Part shown: piece by piece, positions 13,115-22,047 of the stretch
How the letters are laid out: each line of letters opens with the position of its first letter
Numbering within the stretch: position 1 is the first letter of the stretch
DNA from: a virus
IMG/VR virus record: IMGVR_UViG_3300037963_006066
Span: 1 to 22,052 of that record
Length of the DNA: 22,052 nt
Reading direction: 5' to 3' (one strand)
Notes under the pieces: model-generated
The model's database searches: none
What the model was told of the DNA's origin: nothing
The model's input: the letters and a program-made list of their open reading frames with translations, nothing else
Position numbers and translations under genes: made by a program

Positions 13115-13122
13115 GATAAATA
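13115..13122 (+). promoter_or_regulatory. T4-type late promoter (GATAAATA), plus strand
   Basis: The plus strand reads AGATAAATATTTTCAG, 27 bases before the ATG at 13150. It is the only plus-strand copy noted, in front of the only plus-strand gene. The two divergent -10 elements are about nine bases apart. Confidence 0.72.
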
Positions 13123-13149: not shown

Positions 13150-13482
13150 ATGAAAGATGGTGAATTTTGCCCCTTAATTAAGAAGAAGTGTGTTGAACAT
13201 AAGTGTGCCTGGTATACACAAGTACAGGGTTATAATCCACAAACTGGACAAGAGGTCAACAATTATAAATGTGCGGTGGCTTGGATGCCAATGATGGCTG
13301 TCGAGAACTCTCAAATGTCCAGACAAACAACTGCTGCAGTAGAAAGTTTTAGAAACGAAACTGTGGCAGCTAATGATAGAAACAATAAATTATACACTCA
13401 TGCATTAAATCAGGGGATTGTACAGGCACAAATTACACCTCATCCCCCTATTAATACGTTACCACCTAATCAAGTAGGATAA
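13150..13482 (+). CDS. Conserved four-cysteine cyanophage protein (110 residues)
   Basis: A 110-residue protein and the only gene on the plus strand. The N-terminal part has four cysteines (C7, C14, C19, C41; spacing C-x6-C-x4-C-x21-C) in 'FCPLIKKKCVEHKCAWYTQV' and 'NYKCAVAWMPM', with His17 nearby. That suggests a bound zinc ion or iron-sulphur cluster. A helical, probably coiled segment follows ('MAVENSQMSRQTTAAVESFR' to 'RNNKLYTHALN'), then a Pro-rich tail. I recall closely similar proteins in other T4-like marine cyanophages, always unnamed. A late promoter 27 bases upstream suggests expression with virion genes, although no Shine-Dalgarno is clear. Its 3' end overlaps the converging 788-residue fibre gene by 13 bases. 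Function unknown; metal binding is inferred only from the cysteines. Confidence 0.85.
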   Translation: MKDGEFCPLIKKKCVEHKCAWYTQVQGYNPQTGQEVNNYKCAVAWMPMMAVENSQMSRQTTAAVESFRNETVAANDRNNKLYTHALNQGIVQAQITPHPPINTLPPNQVG

Positions 13483-15836
13483 GCATCCTTAGTACAAATA
13501 ATCACATCAAGATATCTGACCCTAAAGTCCATGGATGCACCAGCAGTTCCAGCGTTTTGCACGGTAATTGTGTGATTATGGTTAGAGTTTTGATTTGATA
13601 CATTGGCATTATGTGAGTGTTCACCAGCATTTTGAGTTTCGTTGATGCCCGTGTTTGCATTTGACGTAGTTTTAGTTTCCTGCTCATTAATAGCGTGTTC
13701 ACCTTTTTCGTCTTCACCCTCTTCATCATTAATTAGTTCTCCTCTTGTGTCAACATAATTATGTGCGTGACCAGGGTCATCAATACTATGTTTATGACCA
13801 TTATGAGTTGAAATGGTTACGGTATGATTGTGATCATCACTCTGATTACCAGCACTAGCATTATGATTATGTTGTGGAAGAACAACGGCTCTTTCATCAA
13901 AAGCATTAGTAAATGCCATATTACCACCATCATTGGCACCTGTACCACTTACAACTCTCAATGCACGATTATTGACATTGGTGGTAACTTTAGTCCAACC
14001 AGTCGGTGCTGCAGCCTGATAAAACAGCATAACAACACCAGCGGGAATGACATTATCTGTTAATTCATTGTAGATGTTGGTGGCAAGACTGGCTGTTGCT
14101 GCTCTAGTAGTTGATGTACTTGTGGGTGGAAATGTGTTATATAATTGAGATACACCCTGAGCAGTGGTTGATGCATCAGGGAGTCTATCTACATCAATGA
14201 CACCTGTGGTGATGTTAGGTCCATGGATGTCAGTTACATTAGAACCATTACCATTTAAGTTACCGACAGTAAAATCCTGTGTGTTTGGATTGTATGTAAA
14301 ATGTGATGCATCACTATCAATAAAAGGTCTTTGATAACTTGAAGCACTTTGGTTACTGAAGAGAACTTGATATGTCTGATTATTATTCCTCTCATCTACA
14401 TTAATGAAGTCTGCATTAGTTACAGTGCCATCTACATCTCCAGTCAGATCACCAACAAAATTTGCAGCGGTTAAGGTATTTGTACTTGGATTGTAAGTAA
14501 ACTGTGAATTTTGTGTGTCAAGATAAAGGGCTTCATAGCCATTAGCATTAGGTTCAGTGAATGCTACCTGATAGTTTGTATTATCACTCTTTTGATCAAT
14601 ATTAACACGTTGGGAACCTGTTGAAATACCAGTCAAGCTACCAACAATTTCGTCAACCGATAGAATGTTTGTGGATGGGTTGTATTGAAGTTGACCGTCT
14701 TCACTATCAATGTATAAATTTTGATAGTCTGAACTTATACCACTGAGACGATCGGTAAATGCTAATTGATAAAATGTATTATCAGATTTTTCTTGAACAG
14801 AAACTCTGTCTGCTCCAGTAGAGACACCAATCAGAGCGGTCTGGTCTTGTCTAACTGTCAGAATACCAGCACTTACACTAAAGTCCTGAGGACCCTTTAG
14901 ATTGTTGATTGTACCGATACCAGAGACATAGATATTATCAAAATCAGCCCGTAATTTACTATCAAGGAATTGAGTGACTGTTAATACACCGACTTCAAGA
15001 TCCTTGTAGTCATTATTGATATAGATTGTACCACCCATACCAGCGGTGTTGGATGCCTGATAATACAGTTTGTTTGGTGCGTTGAATGGAACCTTAAAGG
15101 TAACAACACCAACCTGGGCACCATTGTTGGTTACACCATCATTATACTGATTATTAAGATCAGCTGTTGGTTGTGTCTTAATATAGAATGGGAAACCAGC
15201 ACTATCTACATGGAACTCGTACTTGGCAGCTCTTTGAAGATAAAGTTCTGGGTCATCAGTATTCTGTGTGAAGCCAATACCAGGAGGACTACCTGCTGTC
15301 AGATATCTAAAGGTGTTTGAATTTACCTCTTCAATATTAAATTTAGTATATACTTCCGCATTATTCGCATCAAGGATATTATCTACTGTTACGTTTGTAA
15401 ACCCGACAGTACCACCAGCAGAGATTTGACCTTGTAAATTTGTACCCTTAATATTACCAGTTACTTCAAGATCACCAAAGATATATGTGGCTGTCGTACC
15501 AGTTGACACTGGTCCAATGATATCGAGTGTGTATACAGGATTGGCTGAGTTGATACCAATCTTTTTATCAGCTTTGACAGCAGACAAGAATGTACCACCT
15601 ACACCAAGATCAAATCCCTCGGTGACAGTAACGATACCAGAAAATACACCACGTTGTGCAGTGATAGTAGTTCCAACGGAGAGATTTGAACTTACCTCAG
15701 CATCGCCAATGACTACAAGTTTCTTATCAGCCTCAGTGGTACCAATACCAACTTTACCTGTACTATCGTCTGCATATAGAAGGTTTTCGTTGACCTCTAA
15801 ACCATTCTTTACGACAAAATCCTTATCGATTGCCAT
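13470..15836 (-). CDS. Tail fibre with tail-collar domain and HxH metal needle (788 residues)
   Basis: 788 residues. The start MAIDKDFVVKNGLEVNENLL leads into a 'GKVGIGTTEADKKLVVIGDA' shaft repeat. Residues about 340-526 hold three tandem repeats of about 65-70 residues with 'SDNTFYQLAF', 'LYIDSEDGQLQYNPSTN' and 'ILSVDEIVGSLTG'. From about residue 596, 'VIPAGVVMLFYQAAAPTGWT' opens a phage tail-collar domain, as in T4 gp12. Residues 653-755 contain six HxH motifs, and the protein ends 'YLDVIICTKDAYPT'. In T4 gp37 and gp12 such histidines coordinate metal along the trimer axis. It may be a short-tail-fibre-like or distal fibre protein. It has its own late promoter at 15871 and a GGGGGAG site 11 bases before the ATG. 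Its 3' end overlaps the plus-strand gene. Confidence 0.88.
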   Translation of the reverse strand: MAIDKDFVVKNGLEVNENLLYADDSTGKVGIGTTEADKKLVVIGDAEVSSNLSVGTTITAQRGVFSGIVTVTEGFDLGVGGTFLSAVKADKKIGINSANPVYTLDIIGPVSTGTTATYIFGDLEVTGNIKGTNLQGQISAGGTVGFTNVTVDNILDANNAEVYTKFNIEEVNSNTFRYLTAGSPPGIGFTQNTDDPELYLQRAAKYEFHVDSAGFPFYIKTQPTADLNNQYNDGVTNNGAQVGVVTFKVPFNAPNKLYYQASNTAGMGGTIYINNDYKDLEVGVLTVTQFLDSKLRADFDNIYVSGIGTINNLKGPQDFSVSAGILTVRQDQTALIGVSTGADRVSVQEKSDNTFYQLAFTDRLSGISSDYQNLYIDSEDGQLQYNPSTNILSVDEIVGSLTGISTGSQRVNIDQKSDNTNYQVAFTEPNANGYEALYLDTQNSQFTYNPSTNTLTAANFVGDLTGDVDGTVTNADFINVDERNNNQTYQVLFSNQSASSYQRPFIDSDASHFTYNPNTQDFTVGNLNGNGSNVTDIHGPNITTGVIDVDRLPDASTTAQGVSQLYNTFPPTSTSTTRAATASLATNIYNELTDNVIPAGVVMLFYQAAAPTGWTKVTTNVNNRALRVVSGTGANDGGNMAFTNAFDERAVVLPQHNHNASAGNQSDDHNHTVTISTHNGHKHSIDDPGHAHNYVDTRGELINDEEGEDEKGEHAINEQETKTTSNANTGINETQNAGEHSHNANVSNQNSNHNHTITVQNAGTAGASMDFRVRYLDVIICTKDAYPT
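13572..13880 (-). other. Six HxH motifs, likely metal-binding fibre tip
   Basis: HxH pairs fall at residues 656/658, 669/671, 681/683, 690/692, 740/742 and 753/755 of the 788-residue fibre. An acidic stretch between the fourth and fifth pairs (about 700-722, rich in Glu and Asp) separates two groups. By analogy with the T4 gp37 tip, each pair from three chains could hold one metal ion. Confidence 0.7.
14260..14820 (-). repeat. Three protein-level repeats of about 65-70 residues
   Basis: Repeats start near residues 340, 410 and 479 of the 788-residue fibre. Each has an 'R/FINV.E/Q...N.TYQV.F' strand, an 'L/FIDS....F.YNP.T' strand and a 'L...N/EI.G.LTG' strand. Boundaries are approximate, and the units differ at many bases. 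Confidence 0.7.
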
Positions 15837-15870: not shown

Positions 15871-15878
15871 TATTTATT
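15871..15878 (-). promoter_or_regulatory. T4-type late promoter (AATAAATA)
   Basis: The minus strand reads GTAATAAATAATAATAAAA, about 35 bases before the ATG at 15836. It lies just after the TGA of the second oxygenase gene (15890), so the 788-residue fibre is probably its own transcription unit. Confidence 0.68.
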
Positions 15879-15889
15879 ACTTAATGTAA

Positions 15890-16486
15890 TCAACCTTGGT
15901 GTGAGGGTGTAATAAAATGTTGAGTCTCTCTTACCTCCTTTACCAAATCAAGACTATCGTCTGTACAGTACGAAAATGCAATCGAAGTTCTTAAATGATC
16001 TGTAAGTACATTAGGGGATGCACCAAAATGTTCGTAATTTGCTGGAATCAAAACCCCTCTGTTAGGTATGTAAGTTGTATATTTGTATTCCTTCTTTTCT
16101 TTATCAAAAAATACAAATTCTCCTCCCCATTGAGTATTCCAATTTTCCTCAGTAAATAAGACAACTGTATAAGTACCTGATTCTTTATAATCAATATGAA
16201 ATGAAGAACCTTGACCACTGGTTTGACCATTTACATGAGACCTAACATAATTCAAATTTTGTTTAATGTATTTCTGTATCTTAAGTTTGATTATACCAGC
16301 AGCATCACATATGCATAATATATTGGCCCTATTTAAATTCTTATTCCAACCCCATGAATATCCATCATCAGTATGAGATCTATTTTTAAGAGTCCACCCA
16401 ATGTATTTAAACTCATCCCTTAGAGCATAAAAATTTTTCGTTGGTAAGATATTATCAATAACAATAGGAAATTCAATATTGTTCAT
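15890..16486 (-). CDS. 2-oxoglutarate/Fe(II) oxygenase, prolyl-4-hydroxylase-like (198 residues)
   Basis: Probably adds a hydroxyl group to a substrate using iron, 2-oxoglutarate and O2. The 198-residue protein begins MNNIEFPIVIDNILPTKNFY. 'GQGSSFHIDYKESGTYTVVL' supplies the first iron ligands, His97 and Asp99. 'WGGEFVFFD' and 'YIPNRGVLIPAN' are the usual core strands, 'YEHFGASP' gives the third ligand His153, and 'HLRTSIAFSY' gives Arg166, which would bind 2-oxoglutarate. All key residues are present, so it should be active. I chose the ATG at 16486 over an upstream TTG at 16558 because the longer form would run far into the previous gene. It lies seven bases after the other oxygenase gene. 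The substrate is unknown; virion proteins made beside it or host components are candidates. Confidence 0.85.
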   Translation of the reverse strand: MNNIEFPIVIDNILPTKNFYALRDEFKYIGWTLKNRSHTDDGYSWGWNKNLNRANILCICDAAGIIKLKIQKYIKQNLNYVRSHVNGQTSGQGSSFHIDYKESGTYTVVLFTEENWNTQWGGEFVFFDKEKKEYKYTTYIPNRGVLIPANYEHFGASPNVLTDHLRTSIAFSYCTDDSLDLVKEVRETQHFITPSHQG

Positions 16487-16493
16487 CTTTATT

Positions 16494-17102
16494 TTATGGT
16501 GAACTGACATTAAGGTTAAATGCCAATGACACTCTATCATATGGATCTTTATTTTCAAGGACGGAGTGTCTTAGGTCTGAGGGAAAAATGACCATATGTC
16601 CCTCAATTGGTTTGAAATTATAACCCGAGCAGTTATGAAATTCATTCATAAATTGTTCGGAATATGAACCATGTAAACGAAAATGGTTGAATTGATTTTG
16701 ATTATATGCCTTTAAATTACCACTTTCGTGTGTATTTTTAATCCATAAACATCCAGATAAATGACTCCCTGGATGAATATGAGAAACATTTTCACTACCC
16801 TGACCGTTAATATTCAACCAGCAACTATCTACTGTGACATTTGTTCCACTCTTGAACATCGTACCGACTGTTTCTCCAATATGTTTTTTTAAAAAACTCA
16901 TACAATCTTGGAAATCGTCTTCGTTTTTGATATTAGTATCTGAGTGCCATCCATTTTTATTTGACCTACTGATACCAGGAGATTTTGATCTTAGATCGTA
17001 AGCATAATCAATAAACTTATCCCTGAACTCTAAGAATTCAGGGTTAGTATCGGTCCTTGTTACAAGTTGAGGAAATAACGGAATGTATTCAATGTTACTC
17101 AT
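16494..17102 (-). CDS. Putative 2OG-Fe(II) oxygenase, TIGR02466/PF13759-like (202 residues)
   Basis: The 202-residue protein (MSNIEYIPLFPQLVTRTDTN) has the pattern of a family recalled as PF13759/TIGR02466, common in cyanophages. A conserved 'NGWHSD' lies near residue 52 and 'VDSCWLNINGQGSENVSHIH' before residue 110. His108 and His110 sit in 'HIHPGSHLSG', 'GHMVIFPSDLRHSV' gives His179, and 'YDRVSLAFN' gives Arg190. The usual acidic ligand two residues after the first His is a His here, as I recall is normal for this family. A hydroxylase or related oxidase is inferred; the substrate is unknown. The ATG at 17102 is preferred over a GTG two codons earlier. No promoter was recognised in the 46 bases upstream, so it may be read through from the 1632-residue gene. 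Confidence 0.82.
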   Translation of the reverse strand: MSNIEYIPLFPQLVTRTDTNPEFLEFRDKFIDYAYDLRSKSPGISRSNKNGWHSDTNIKNEDDFQDCMSFLKKHIGETVGTMFKSGTNVTVDSCWLNINGQGSENVSHIHPGSHLSGCLWIKNTHESGNLKAYNQNQFNHFRLHGSYSEQFMNEFHNCSGYNFKPIEGHMVIFPSDLRHSVLENKDPYDRVSLAFNLNVSSP

Positions 17103-17148
17103 ATTCACATATCACATATAATAATTATAGAACAAATTTCAATTTAAA

Positions 17149-20100
17149 TCAACTACTAATATCTCCAAATGTCTTCCACATGTTATTAGTTGTATAAACC
17201 CAACCTACCGTACCACCCGCCTCGGGGTTTGCATTGTAAACAATATCACCAGGGTTACCAGCATTTGATGGTGTTGCAATACCGACAGTGATTTGTCTAG
17301 AAACAGACGCATTACCTTGAAGGAACAAACTATTTGCTTCGAATCCCTCTGCAGACGTGTTGGTAACTTTTTGTGAGAATTGAACAGGACCGTTGAATTC
17401 AGAAAGAATATCACGAGAGTCACCACCATCAACAACGAAATTTCTTGCAACTTTCAGAACAGAACCTTCAACAAAGTTAAACTCCGAAGTTTCATTCTTC
17501 GAACCTACAGTATAAGGATCTTCACCTGTAACTGTTTGAATTGGTGTATCATAAACTTGTTCTCTACCAGTATTAGATGCGATTCTCTTATTACCGATAT
17601 AGAAGTCACCTCTATCATTCATACCAGTGTAGTTTACAACACCACCACCAATAGTTTGTGACTGTACGTTGATCTGTTCATCAAGTGTTAATTGTTTTGT
17701 CTGTTTACTTGGGAAAGCAGTGGAGTAGTTACCAGGACCATAACCCAAATATTCAAACGTGTGACCAGACGCACGAATAATGGAATTTCTTCTGAATTCA
17801 AGTGGATAGAATCTAATCCTGTTAACAACGGATCCAACAACGTGAGTATCTGCAATACTTCCAAAGACACCTCTAAAGACTCTTAATTCAGTATCACCCG
17901 AAGTTCTACTTACGGTTCTACTGATTCTCATGATTTCATCATCAATTTGAAGGAAATCACCAATTTGGAACGCATAATTTGTCATGTTATTGACATTAAT
18001 TATGTTCGTAGTCTTACTTGTGATTGCTGCTGAAAGGGTTGTAGAGATACCTGCATAGATTGAAGTCTCTCTTCCGTGAAGTCTACCATTACCAACCACA
18101 AGGTCACCTGCATTATTGTAAATACCTGCAGGATGGATTCTGATGGTACCACCAGTGGCAGGAGTGACAGTGTTGATACCAACGTCTAAGACCACTGTGG
18201 TCAAACCAATCTTATCAATACATGAGAATGTACCGTTGTAGAATGTTTGTGCTGCACCACTGACTGTTACACTGTTGTTTACACGGAAGTTGTTGGCATA
18301 GTCTGTTGTGACCGTTGCAAGACCAACATCCTTATTATATACGAAACTTGCGGTATCATAAGAAGGACCCATGACAGAGAATGCACCTGGTCTACAAACA
18401 TCAATACCGAGACCACTTGTTGTGATACCTGGAGACTCTGCGTCAAGAGGTTCCACTTCAAATTCTTTTAGTCCAGATATAGAAGTAATTCTATATTGAG
18501 TATTGAACCTTCTACCATCAAAATCATTAATACCAGTGACATTGATAGTATCGTTTCTATTATCATAGATTCTGTTTACAGAACCAGTTGCGACTGTAAA
18601 TCCAGTGGTTGTTGCAATACCAACAACTCTAAAGGTGTCACCTTCAACAAAAGCACTACCCCCATCCATGATGGCGATGTCAATAATTTCACTAGAACTA
18701 GTTCCATCTACAGTGACTAATGCGGTAGCATGTCTTCCAAGTGAACCAGCACCAGTGTTCTCAAGTTTGGCATTGTAATAGTATTGAATGGTAGAGGAAC
18801 CGTCACCGTAACCTGCACCAACATTGTCAATAACAGGTCTTGTTATTCTACTTAAACCATGTTCAATATCTGTAAAGATTGTATAAGCTGTACCAACATT
18901 ATTTGAGACAATATCAGTGATACCGACACCAATACCAGTATCTGAGAAAAGTTCTTCTAAAGTTTCTCCAGTGATACTCTTTGTGGGTTCATTGATTTTA
19001 ACTTCACCAATATTATTTGGGAGAGCGTGACATGCAGATGATTCAGATGTTGATGTAGGATTATCTCTGTCAAGTTGTGGATAAAGATGTTTGACTGGTT
19101 GAGGGAAAGCAAAGTCCTCAGTATTGAAAGGTGCAACAGATGGTTTTTGATCTGCATTAATCAAACTCAGATAATAGATACCATCTTGTTCACCATTTTT
19201 ATAGTCATTAATGGTTGTTACATCATAGCAGAAATAATTACCAACGTAATTTTTTCTCTTATATGTTGGGAGAGATGTTGTTCTCTGAGACGTATTGTTT
19301 GTAAAAGTTCCAGGACTGGATTGAATCTGATTAACAGTGAATGTCTTAGCACTTGTGATACCAGTGACTTCATATGTTCCGTTATAACCAGAGTTACCAA
19401 CACCAACAGTTGGGAACAGGGAACTAGTAATATTATTGATTTCTACAGTCGATCCAACTGAAAGACCGTGTGGTTTTTCAGTGCTGTAAAAAGCAATACC
19501 CGAAACATAATTTGCATCAGAGATGAAACTGAAGTTTCTCAACTGAGCATCGTTGCTCATGTCAACAGATCCTGGGTTGAACTCAAGAGCCACTTCAGTA
19601 TCAGTTGCACCAGTTACATCACCAGATTCTTGTAAGATATAACTATCCAGTGGTGGTCTTGCAGAATCAGATCCAGTTGATGATGGAATTACAAATCTTA
19701 CTTGGTGAATTCTATCAGATGACTGTCTCGTATCAACTTGTCTCTCAAAGAATGTTCTTGGTGATGCATCACCCAAACCACCACCAGTTACTTTGGTGTA
19801 AATGTTATTTTCGGTTGAAGCACCAGATACATTTACATACCACTGATTTTCAGTAGTATCATACTGAATGGGGTGACCGATATCACCAGCAGATTTATCA
19901 CTTACTCTACTTTCAACAATCAAAGTATCTCCAAGATTGTTAATACCAATATCATTTCCAGTAAGAGAATCATTAAGGGTCTGTGCTAACTGAATTTGAT
20001 CAGCACCAAGACCGTCTACGATTGAGAAATAAACCTTATTGTGTTCAAGACCATCAGGTAATCTACCATCATTTGAAATAACTCTGACAGATTCACCTTG

Positions 20101-22047
20101 AATAAACTGGTGGCTCTCAGTTAAGGTAAGTGTGTTATTTGTAATACTATTACCAGTAGACACATTTCTTCCAACTCTTCCTATTTTCTTAGAAGAAATT
20201 TTCTTCGTAGCATAATTTGTATCTGCCATCACAATTCTGGCACGGAAGTTTGTGGGAGTACCAGACTCTGGAATAATAACTTTCAGTTCATCATCTTTCT
20301 TAGCACCAAATCTATAACCCTGAATAGTGGTGATTGGTGGCTCATCAATGTTTGTCTGTTCATAAAGATAGAGTCTTGATGTATTCGCAACAGAAGTTGT
20401 TTTTGTAATATCAATGGATGAGAATTCAATCGTTGCAACTTCAGGTCTTAATTTTCTTGGAGGAATAACTTGTGTGATGTAACCTACATCATCCTGGGAG
20501 AATACATTGTCTTTATATCCTTTTGATACAAGAGCAATCTGACCGAAGTTTGAGTTTGAGTTAGTAACAGAGAAGTCACCACCAGACTCAACTACAAATT
20601 GATTTGCATAACCAATCGCAAAGATTGAGACTAATTGAATAAGTGAATTATTCGATGCTTTAATGTGGAAGTTTGTGTAGTCGGGTCTGTAAACAGCATC
20701 AATATCTTTGTGAAGATTTGGAACCGTTGTAAAATCATCAAAAGTTCCACTAGTAGAATTGTATTTTACAAACGCCTTGTCATCTACTTGAAGACCGACA
20801 CCAGTGTATTGTGCTACGACCATGGACTTAAATCCATCAGCCTTACTACCATCGGCATGCATACCACACATACCGAAGATTGATCTCAGTGATACGTTAA
20901 AGACATAAGGAGATGCAGATGTGACGGTATCTGTAGAAAGTTCAATATTTGATCCTGTTGGATTAGGTAATGCATCACCAGGAGCTACGGGGACTTCATA
21001 CTTAAATCCTGTTGTACCATTGATATCTGTGTCTGTAATTTCAGTGACAAGGAATGTACCGTTATATTTGGTATCCGTAACGTTGTTGATAATGACATTA
21101 GTATCAGTGTTCAGACCTTGAATACCCTCAGAAAGTTTAACGTCAATGACAGTAGTTGCAGTTACACCGTCTCCAGCCTTGATACTATTAATACCAACGG
21201 TACCACTAACTGGACCAACAATTCTAAACTCGTCAATTTTAGGATTGATATCTACATTTGCATTAGGATAATCTGGTTCGATTTCACGTCCACTACCAGG
21301 TCCATAAGCAATACCAATCTTCTCATAATACATGTCAAGATCAGTGCGATCCGTTGTATACGTTAAGAAGTCGTCATTGATATTAACATCATTTCTACCA
21401 TCACAGTATTCAAATGCAGTCAGTCTGTGGTGTGAAAATGTGGGTTTGAATTTATTTGTACTATAATCTTTGTAACATGCCTTATTTGTATCTGCGTCCT
21501 TGATAGTGAAAGAGTTTAGATAACAACCACCAGTTAGTCTAAACAGTGCAGATCTTTCAATGAGCGTATTTTCTGGATTTGGAACATAGATTGGTCTGAT
21601 GACACACTTTCTGAGGTCTTGTCCAACAATAGAACAACCTCTTGGTACAACAACACCACCATGGATACTATTCACCTTATACAGGTCATTGTTTGTATCA
21701 AAGATATCAAAGTTTGTTGTGTTACTGTAAGCAGTGAAGTCACTAGAAGTTACACCACTCCTAAGATTAAAACTAGAACCATTAGGAATCCATCCAGGTC
21801 TATTGTCAATGTGGTGAGGACCTGGTGCTAAGTAAATCGTTGTCTTTTCAAATCTATCGTTATCTTTTCCTTTCTGATATGAGAATCTAGCAGCTTCAAT
21901 CAGTGCCCTTTGAATCGTCTTGAAAGGACGAGCCAATGAGTTTCCCTGGTTCTCAATACCATCTGTCGCATCCAAATTGTTAGGATCGACGTAAAGAATA
22001 TTACCTTTTACATTCTTCAGAAAATTATCTAAGCGAGATAATGGCAT
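17149..22047 (-). CDS. Giant beta-helix virion structural protein (1632 residues)
   Basis: A 1632-residue protein that starts MPLSRLDNFLKNVKGNILYV five bases from the right edge, so its ribosome site and promoter lie outside. I recall a similar large structural protein in cyanomyoviruses. Residues about 15-60 have 'YVDPNNLDATDG' and 'ARPFKTIQRALIEAARFS', the entry of a right-handed beta-helix of pectate-lyase type. 'CSIVGQDLRKCVIRP' and 'GGCYLNSFTIKDAD' continue it. At about 470-510 'IQLVSIFAIGYANQFVVESG' and 'VTNSNSNFGQIALVSKG' match the 1294-residue protein. Later come 'GLSVGSTVEINN', 'YNGTYEVTGIT' and 'DDEIMRISRTVSRTSGDTEL' segments. At about 1428 'SGHTFEYLGYGPG' and 'GGGVVNYTGMNDRGDFYIG' match the other protein's C-terminus. 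No catalytic site can be assigned. It is probably a tail or baseplate-associated fibre. Confidence 0.87.
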   Translation of the reverse strand: MPLSRLDNFLKNVKGNILYVDPNNLDATDGIENQGNSLARPFKTIQRALIEAARFSYQKGKDNDRFEKTTIYLAPGPHHIDNRPGWIPNGSSFNLRSGVTSSDFTAYSNTTNFDIFDTNNDLYKVNSIHGGVVVPRGCSIVGQDLRKCVIRPIYVPNPENTLIERSALFRLTGGCYLNSFTIKDADTNKACYKDYSTNKFKPTFSHHRLTAFEYCDGRNDVNINDDFLTYTTDRTDLDMYYEKIGIAYGPGSGREIEPDYPNANVDINPKIDEFRIVGPVSGTVGINSIKAGDGVTATTVIDVKLSEGIQGLNTDTNVIINNVTDTKYNGTFLVTEITDTDINGTTGFKYEVPVAPGDALPNPTGSNIELSTDTVTSASPYVFNVSLRSIFGMCGMHADGSKADGFKSMVVAQYTGVGLQVDDKAFVKYNSTSGTFDDFTTVPNLHKDIDAVYRPDYTNFHIKASNNSLIQLVSIFAIGYANQFVVESGGDFSVTNSNSNFGQIALVSKGYKDNVFSQDDVGYITQVIPPRKLRPEVATIEFSSIDITKTTSVANTSRLYLYEQTNIDEPPITTIQGYRFGAKKDDELKVIIPESGTPTNFRARIVMADTNYATKKISSKKIGRVGRNVSTGNSITNNTLTLTESHQFIQGESVRVISNDGRLPDGLEHNKVYFSIVDGLGADQIQLAQTLNDSLTGNDIGINNLGDTLIVESRVSDKSAGDIGHPIQYDTTENQWYVNVSGASTENNIYTKVTGGGLGDASPRTFFERQVDTRQSSDRIHQVRFVIPSSTGSDSARPPLDSYILQESGDVTGATDTEVALEFNPGSVDMSNDAQLRNFSFISDANYVSGIAFYSTEKPHGLSVGSTVEINNITSSLFPTVGVGNSGYNGTYEVTGITSAKTFTVNQIQSSPGTFTNNTSQRTTSLPTYKRKNYVGNYFCYDVTTINDYKNGEQDGIYYLSLINADQKPSVAPFNTEDFAFPQPVKHLYPQLDRDNPTSTSESSACHALPNNIGEVKINEPTKSITGETLEELFSDTGIGVGITDIVSNNVGTAYTIFTDIEHGLSRITRPVIDNVGAGYGDGSSTIQYYYNAKLENTGAGSLGRHATALVTVDGTSSSEIIDIAIMDGGSAFVEGDTFRVVGIATTTGFTVATGSVNRIYDNRNDTINVTGINDFDGRRFNTQYRITSISGLKEFEVEPLDAESPGITTSGLGIDVCRPGAFSVMGPSYDTASFVYNKDVGLATVTTDYANNFRVNNSVTVSGAAQTFYNGTFSCIDKIGLTTVVLDVGINTVTPATGGTIRIHPAGIYNNAGDLVVGNGRLHGRETSIYAGISTTLSAAITSKTTNIINVNNMTNYAFQIGDFLQIDDEIMRISRTVSRTSGDTELRVFRGVFGSIADTHVVGSVVNRIRFYPLEFRRNSIIRASGHTFEYLGYGPGNYSTAFPSKQTKQLTLDEQINVQSQTIGGGVVNYTGMNDRGDFYIGNKRIASNTGREQVYDTPIQTVTGEDPYTVGSKNETSEFNFVEGSVLKVARNFVVDGGDSRDILSEFNGPVQFSQKVTNTSAEGFEANSLFLQGNASVSRQITVGIATPSNAGNPGDIVYNANPEAGGTVGWVYTTNNMWKTFGDISS

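Follow-up and report, generated by a model that had tools for sequence, protein, structure and literature searches.

Cyanophage 2OG-Fe(II) oxygenases have been reported as numerous (PMC3037559), with 24 encoded by S-SCSM1 (PMC9602691) and ten by S-CREM1 (PMC9964418); across T4-like cyanophages they are common, at 1-24 per genome. Roles proposed for them include 2OG/nitrogen control, DNA repair, and general host reprogramming (PMC3037559; PMC2984593; PMC9146016), and phage oxygenases structurally like human EGLN3 have been described (PMC12774648). In S-TIM4, mutations acquired as the phage adapted to sub-optimal hosts fell in tail genes and also in a non-particle-associated 2OG gene, which is a lead only (PMC6224464). 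Virion proteomics of S-SCSM1 placed no 2OG oxygenase among the function-assigned virion proteins and is silent on modification (PMC9602691). In Syn9, S-CREM1, Sf-FP1, S-CAM4, and the Pelagibacter phage Mosig, small 2OG oxygenases of two families, distinguished by an HxH or an HxD motif, are arranged head to tail and commonly close to genes for fibres or necks. Such clusters occupy other genome positions, several of them accompanied by tryptophan halogenases, whereas in the DNA analyzed here (a 22,052-base virus record, hereafter the window) a pair of such genes sits between fibre genes. Tryptophan halogenase genes adjoin the oxygenase clusters of Syn9, S-CREM1, and Sf-FP1, and halogenase-like proteins occur beside such clusters in two environmental contigs (all among loci L177, L180, L181, L120, and L153); some of these halogenase-associated clusters have fibre or neck genes at their borders. 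A further array (L094:6309-10198) comprises seven tandem genes of 171-199 aa, including six 2OG oxygenases drawn from both the HxH and the HxD family; apparent neck genes lie on one side of the array and, on the other, a 560-aa protein that weakly matches methyltransferases.

The window is a fragment of a Synechococcus T4-like phage, from a marine cyanobacterial virus; among isolates, the Synechococcus phages RN05-S and RB11-B come closest to it (~81% DNA identity over 59% of the window). On its minus strand, the oxygenase genes OXA and then OXB lie between the genes of two tail fibre proteins, one of 1632 aa upstream (17149..22047, minus strand; phrog_529 tail fiber, E=0) and one of 788 aa downstream (13470..15836, minus strand; phrog_677 at 4.6e-18 and phrog_2097 at 2.8e-5). 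OXA (16494..17102, minus strand; 202 aa) is an HxH-type 2OG-Fe(II) oxygenase of PF13759, TIGR02466, and phrog_81, with a complete reading frame from an ATG at 17102 to a stop codon ending at 16494; OXB (15890..16486, minus strand; 198 aa) is an HxD-type enzyme, PF13640-like and matching phrog_274, likewise complete from an ATG at 16486 to a stop codon ending at 15890. The first-pass annotation had described two different 2OG-Fe(II) oxygenases side by side among fibre genes, and both the distinct family memberships and the phrog_529 and phrog_677/2097 flanks bear this out; its remark that the two start seven bases apart holds for the existence of a seven-base gap, but this gap (16487-16493) runs from the OXA stop to the OXB start.

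OXA scores well above the cut-offs for PF13759 (2OG-FeII_Oxy_5; 72 bits against 27) and TIGR02466 (89.5 bits against 62.5) and falls short of that for the FlmC family 2OG oxygenase model NF052475 (42.9 bits against 240). The match of OXB to PF13640 (2OG-FeII_Oxy_3; cut-off 27) is borderline, at 27.9 bits, or 26.4 without the first Met, although OXB has the HxD...H...R arrangement of the PF13640/phrog_274 cyanophage oxygenases and is matched by phrog_274 over its length. That PHROG carries the name "DNA endonuclease V" (for OXB at window 15890-16486, and also at L007 and L177); the label looks like a mis-annotation of phrog_274-type phage genes, because OXB is matched by 2OG-Fe(II) models of Pfam and is predicted to fold like PHD2. 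One limited pattern search of 84,980 species genomes for a cellular origin of OXB returned only three short, weak matches. The ligand and 2OG residues of OXA (H108-I-H110...H179...R190) are invariant in 51 relatives, and those of OXB (H97-I-D99...H153...R166, the iron triad and 2OG-binding Arg) in 26; comparisons between diverged relatives gave dN/dS values of 0.12-0.28 (OXA) and 0.11-0.33 (OXB), and a single pair was too close to be informative. Given this invariance and the low dN/dS (~0.11-0.33), the HxH and HxD motifs are not due to chance, and, judged from their sequences, both genes are intact and under purifying selection. The difference in motif to which the first-pass annotation drew attention is therefore genuine and separates two families; as HxH is found across the whole OXA family, also in its bacterial members of known structure (3bvc and 2rg4), it is no peculiarity of this phage.

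AlphaFold2 models were obtained with pLDDT values of 95.4 (OXA) and 77.5 (OXB). The best fold matches of the OXA model are 3bvc (Z 20.4) and 2rg4 (Z 20.3), TIGR02466/PF13759 proteins of unknown function that have the HxH...H...R arrangement and fold in common with OXA; unlike them, OXA is phage-borne and embedded between tail-fibre genes, and the identity is only ~20%. Next come the chlorella-virus collagen prolyl hydroxylase (vCPH), PHD2, and the EF-Tu prolyl hydroxylase 4iw3 (Z ~16-17). By sequence, solved relatives of OXB were not found from OXB alone, and its profile gave one weak match; its model is best matched by PHD2 (Z 16.5, rmsd 3.2, 173 residues aligned). The HIF prolyl hydroxylase PHD2, Pseudomonas P4H (acting on EF-Tu), and vCPH thus belong to the same fold class as OXA and OXB, yet are only ~10-17% identical to them. 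From the models and the retained residues, OXA and OXB are inferred to be catalytically intact 2OG-Fe(II) oxygenases of prolyl-hydroxylase-like fold, and the predicted fold favours peptidyl hydroxylases; it does not show the substrate, since antibiotic-tailoring and other small-molecule oxygenases share it. The earlier suggestion of a protein-modifying rather than a DNA-modifying enzyme accordingly stands in part: the predicted PHD/P4H-like fold points to no obvious nucleic-acid enzyme, but it leaves room for small-molecule substrates.

The fibre junction itself is variable. In RN05-S, where this pair is absent, a late-promoter-like ATAAATA and the leader of the next fibre gene come directly after the stop codon that ends the 1632-aa fibre gene, and it is exactly between that stop codon and the ATAAATA that both oxygenases sit in the window. 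The phage collection searched contains no isolate that bears the cassette. The slot holds OXA alone in L018 and L019, OXA and OXB in the window, L009, and L011 (the sequence of L010 begins inside OXA), and OXA, OXB, and a third, PF13640-type oxygenase in L012, L013/L020, L021, L022, and L026; the third gene follows OXB and its product is ~25-30% identical to OXB (L012:10524-11135; L021:11197-11781; L026:5833-6393). Such precise presence and absence at a fixed junction, with an empty site in RN05-S and variable content in relatives, is one of the traits of morons (accessory genes with a promoter and terminator of their own), and it identifies the OXA-OXB pair, at the level of genome comparison, as an accessory cassette. 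When fibre loci were sampled regardless of oxygenases, only two of the 65 with a downstream gene present had an oxygenase directly after the fibre gene, both on contigs already known, and two further loci had one within four genes; this sporadic occupancy, together with the empty nearest isolate, makes the cassette optional. On the fibre tree, which was midpoint-rooted and has some long branches, the oxygenase-bearing loci require two changes, those outside the window's clade having been chosen by their oxygenases. Compared with the window, L018 and L019 have fibre flanks of ~90-96% identity, an OXA of only ~75% identity, and no OXB; the enzymes therefore do not vary in step with these fibre regions.

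Expression signals at the junction are mixed. A candidate sigma-70-type promoter, TTGATT-17-TATAAT (17124..17152, minus strand), which matches the consensus at 10 of 12 positions and is identified by that match only, lies ~20 bases ahead of the ATG of OXA, its first hexamer partly overlapping the stop codon that ends the fibre gene upstream. The longest invariant intergenic run before OXA, TCTATAATT, is unchanged in all ten aligned clade members. Within the window, ATAAATA was not seen upstream of OXA or OXB; it precedes several other window genes and the 788-aa fibre gene, where it is a consensus match to a late promoter (15871..15877, minus strand). In L029, L030, L032, and L100, a late-promoter motif stands 29-32 bases before the OXA ATG. 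As no terminator-like site was found between OXB and the 788-aa fibre gene, read-through from the cassette is possible. These consensus matches suggest late expression in the sister lineages, to which the window's lineage would have added, or for which it would have substituted, an early-type promoter.

Whether the enzymes are tied to fibres depends on how widely the families are drawn. At loci retrieved by the OXA and OXB profiles, 21 of 222 oxygenase genes had a recognized structural neighbour, as did 18 of 253 other small genes (p=0.40), so that the wider families show no general enrichment beside structural genes; incomplete fibre detection lowers both counts, and the null set was drawn from these same neighbourhoods, which makes the test conservative. 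In annotated phages, relatives from these families occur near psbD/glutaredoxin, uvsY, tRNA arrays, and sugar genes as well as fibres. Placement alone, on which the first-pass annotation had relied, is consequently a weak argument in view of this count, the low occupancy, the empty nearest isolate, and the sigma-70-like promoter of the cassette. For one OXA subclade, the fibre context does carry meaning. OXA of the window's clade forms a single clade with that of L029, L030, L032, L033, and L100 (support 100/99), in which all ten rows adjoin fibre genes, down to 36% identity and usually with OXB, and in which the tail-protein flanks were confirmed by PHROGs. The OXA-OXB pair likewise lies between fibre genes in L029, L030, and L032, and is present in reversed order in L033, even though the long fibre of this lineage is only ~38% identical to that of the window. 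The nearest OXB relatives (at least 49% identity) are all at fibre junctions, in two groups that are not resolved as one clade. The linkage of OXA to fibres is old and kept, over deep divergence; part of the conserved order reflects shared ancestry, because the fibre-linked phages are relatives. The enzyme families are ordinary, and their context here is unusually stable.

Fibre hydroxylation by the cassette is plausible. To judge from the fold, OXA and OXB would most likely hydroxylate protein side chains, and the conserved linkage would make the neighbouring, late-made fibre proteins the likeliest single target class; hydroxylation may then tune fibre stability, folding, or receptor binding, with a presumed effect on adsorption. 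We infer both the enzyme activity and the protein substrate. Kept linkage and fold make this reading somewhat more likely, whereas the promoter of the cassette and the fact that the cassette is dispensable make it less so; most relatives with the same fibres are without the cassette, and fibre hydroxylation would thus be optional for the phage. That accessory OXA and OXB hydroxylate proteins, most likely the neighbouring fibres, with an effect on fibre properties, is tentatively the best explanation overall, at less than even confidence. Hydroxylation of fibre or other virion proteins is, in the same tentative sense, possible rather than probable, and it is doubtful that a dedicated fibre-linked peptidyl-hydroxylase pair, with one HxH in place of HxD, hydroxylates the phage's own tail fibres and tunes adsorption.

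The fibres themselves were searched for a substrate motif, and none emerged from Gly-X-Y runs, fibre composition, or k-mers. A collagen-like substrate was rejected, there being no Gly-X-Y run of at least six in any open frame of the window and of loci up to L188; two RN05-S genes annotated as collagen-like (L185:1848-3357) also have no runs of six or more. In the 788-aa fibre of cassette-bearing phages, Pro content showed no significant difference (p=0.051) and Lys and Asn were no different, and Ser/Gly differences and private k-mers were discarded as a substrate signature, being confounded by clade and set against an unequal control. The C-terminal region of this fibre (window 13470-14040) contains six HxH motifs, which are retained (6-9) in relatives both with and without oxygenases; by analogy, the HxH-rich end may be a metal-binding fibre tip, of which T4 gp37 is a known example, and a sequence search of solved structures gave no match to the C-terminus. 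A 110-aa plus-strand gene (13150-13482) of no recognized family sits between two minus-strand fibre genes at this end, with an ATAAATA motif of its own at 13116; relatives encode its protein at 93-99% identity, while DNA identity falls to ~63% at that end of the 788-aa fibre gene which adjoins it.

The alternative that survives best is that the oxygenases, acting early in infection, hydroxylate a host protein (a translation factor or regulator, for example), the fibre junction being only a tolerated insertion site. The sigma-70-like promoter conserved in the window's clade would suit such a role, as would the clean insertion between stop codon and late promoter, the structural match to 4iw3, the scatter of family relatives among accessory genes, and the view of the family as host reprogramming genes taken in work on S-SCSM1 (PMC9602691). 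The OXA subclade nevertheless stays at fibre junctions instead of moving between accessory regions, and the late motif precedes OXA in four relatives, so that a host target is judged unlikely. Small-molecule or cell-surface chemistry, in which a sugar, lipid, or metabolite would be modified and, for example, the host envelope altered, is more unlikely still. In its favour, RN05-S has a PF13759 oxygenase and an OXB relative in or near a nucleotide-sugar/glycosyltransferase region, the antibiotic-tailoring oxygenases SnoN, OkaE, and KanJ have the same fold, and oxygenase arrays of other phages adjoin tryptophan halogenase genes, but recognized sugar or secondary-metabolism genes do not adjoin the window cassette. 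DNA repair or 2-oxoglutarate drawdown, as proposed for cyanophage 2OG oxygenases (PMC3037559; PMC2984593) and in keeping with relatives near uvsY (P-SSM2) or a RecA-like recombinase gene (S-N03), is very improbable, as the window has no recognized repair gene, its Pfam matches include no AlkB-type family, the best fold matches are of peptidyl-hydroxylase type, and two different enzymes kept by purifying selection would be more than a 2OG sink requires.

The part worth following is the fibre-linked OXA subgroup, the enzymes themselves belonging to known families. The 2OG oxygenases of T4-like cyanophages have no known substrate, and this subgroup offers a concrete and testable substrate hypothesis. 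A literature search that covered few subscription journals found no papers on point concerning phage fibre hydroxylation; if fibre hydroxylation by OXA and OXB is true, it would be a modification of phage virion proteins without precedent in that search, and it could bear on host range and on the sensing of oxygen, iron, or 2-oxoglutarate during infection.
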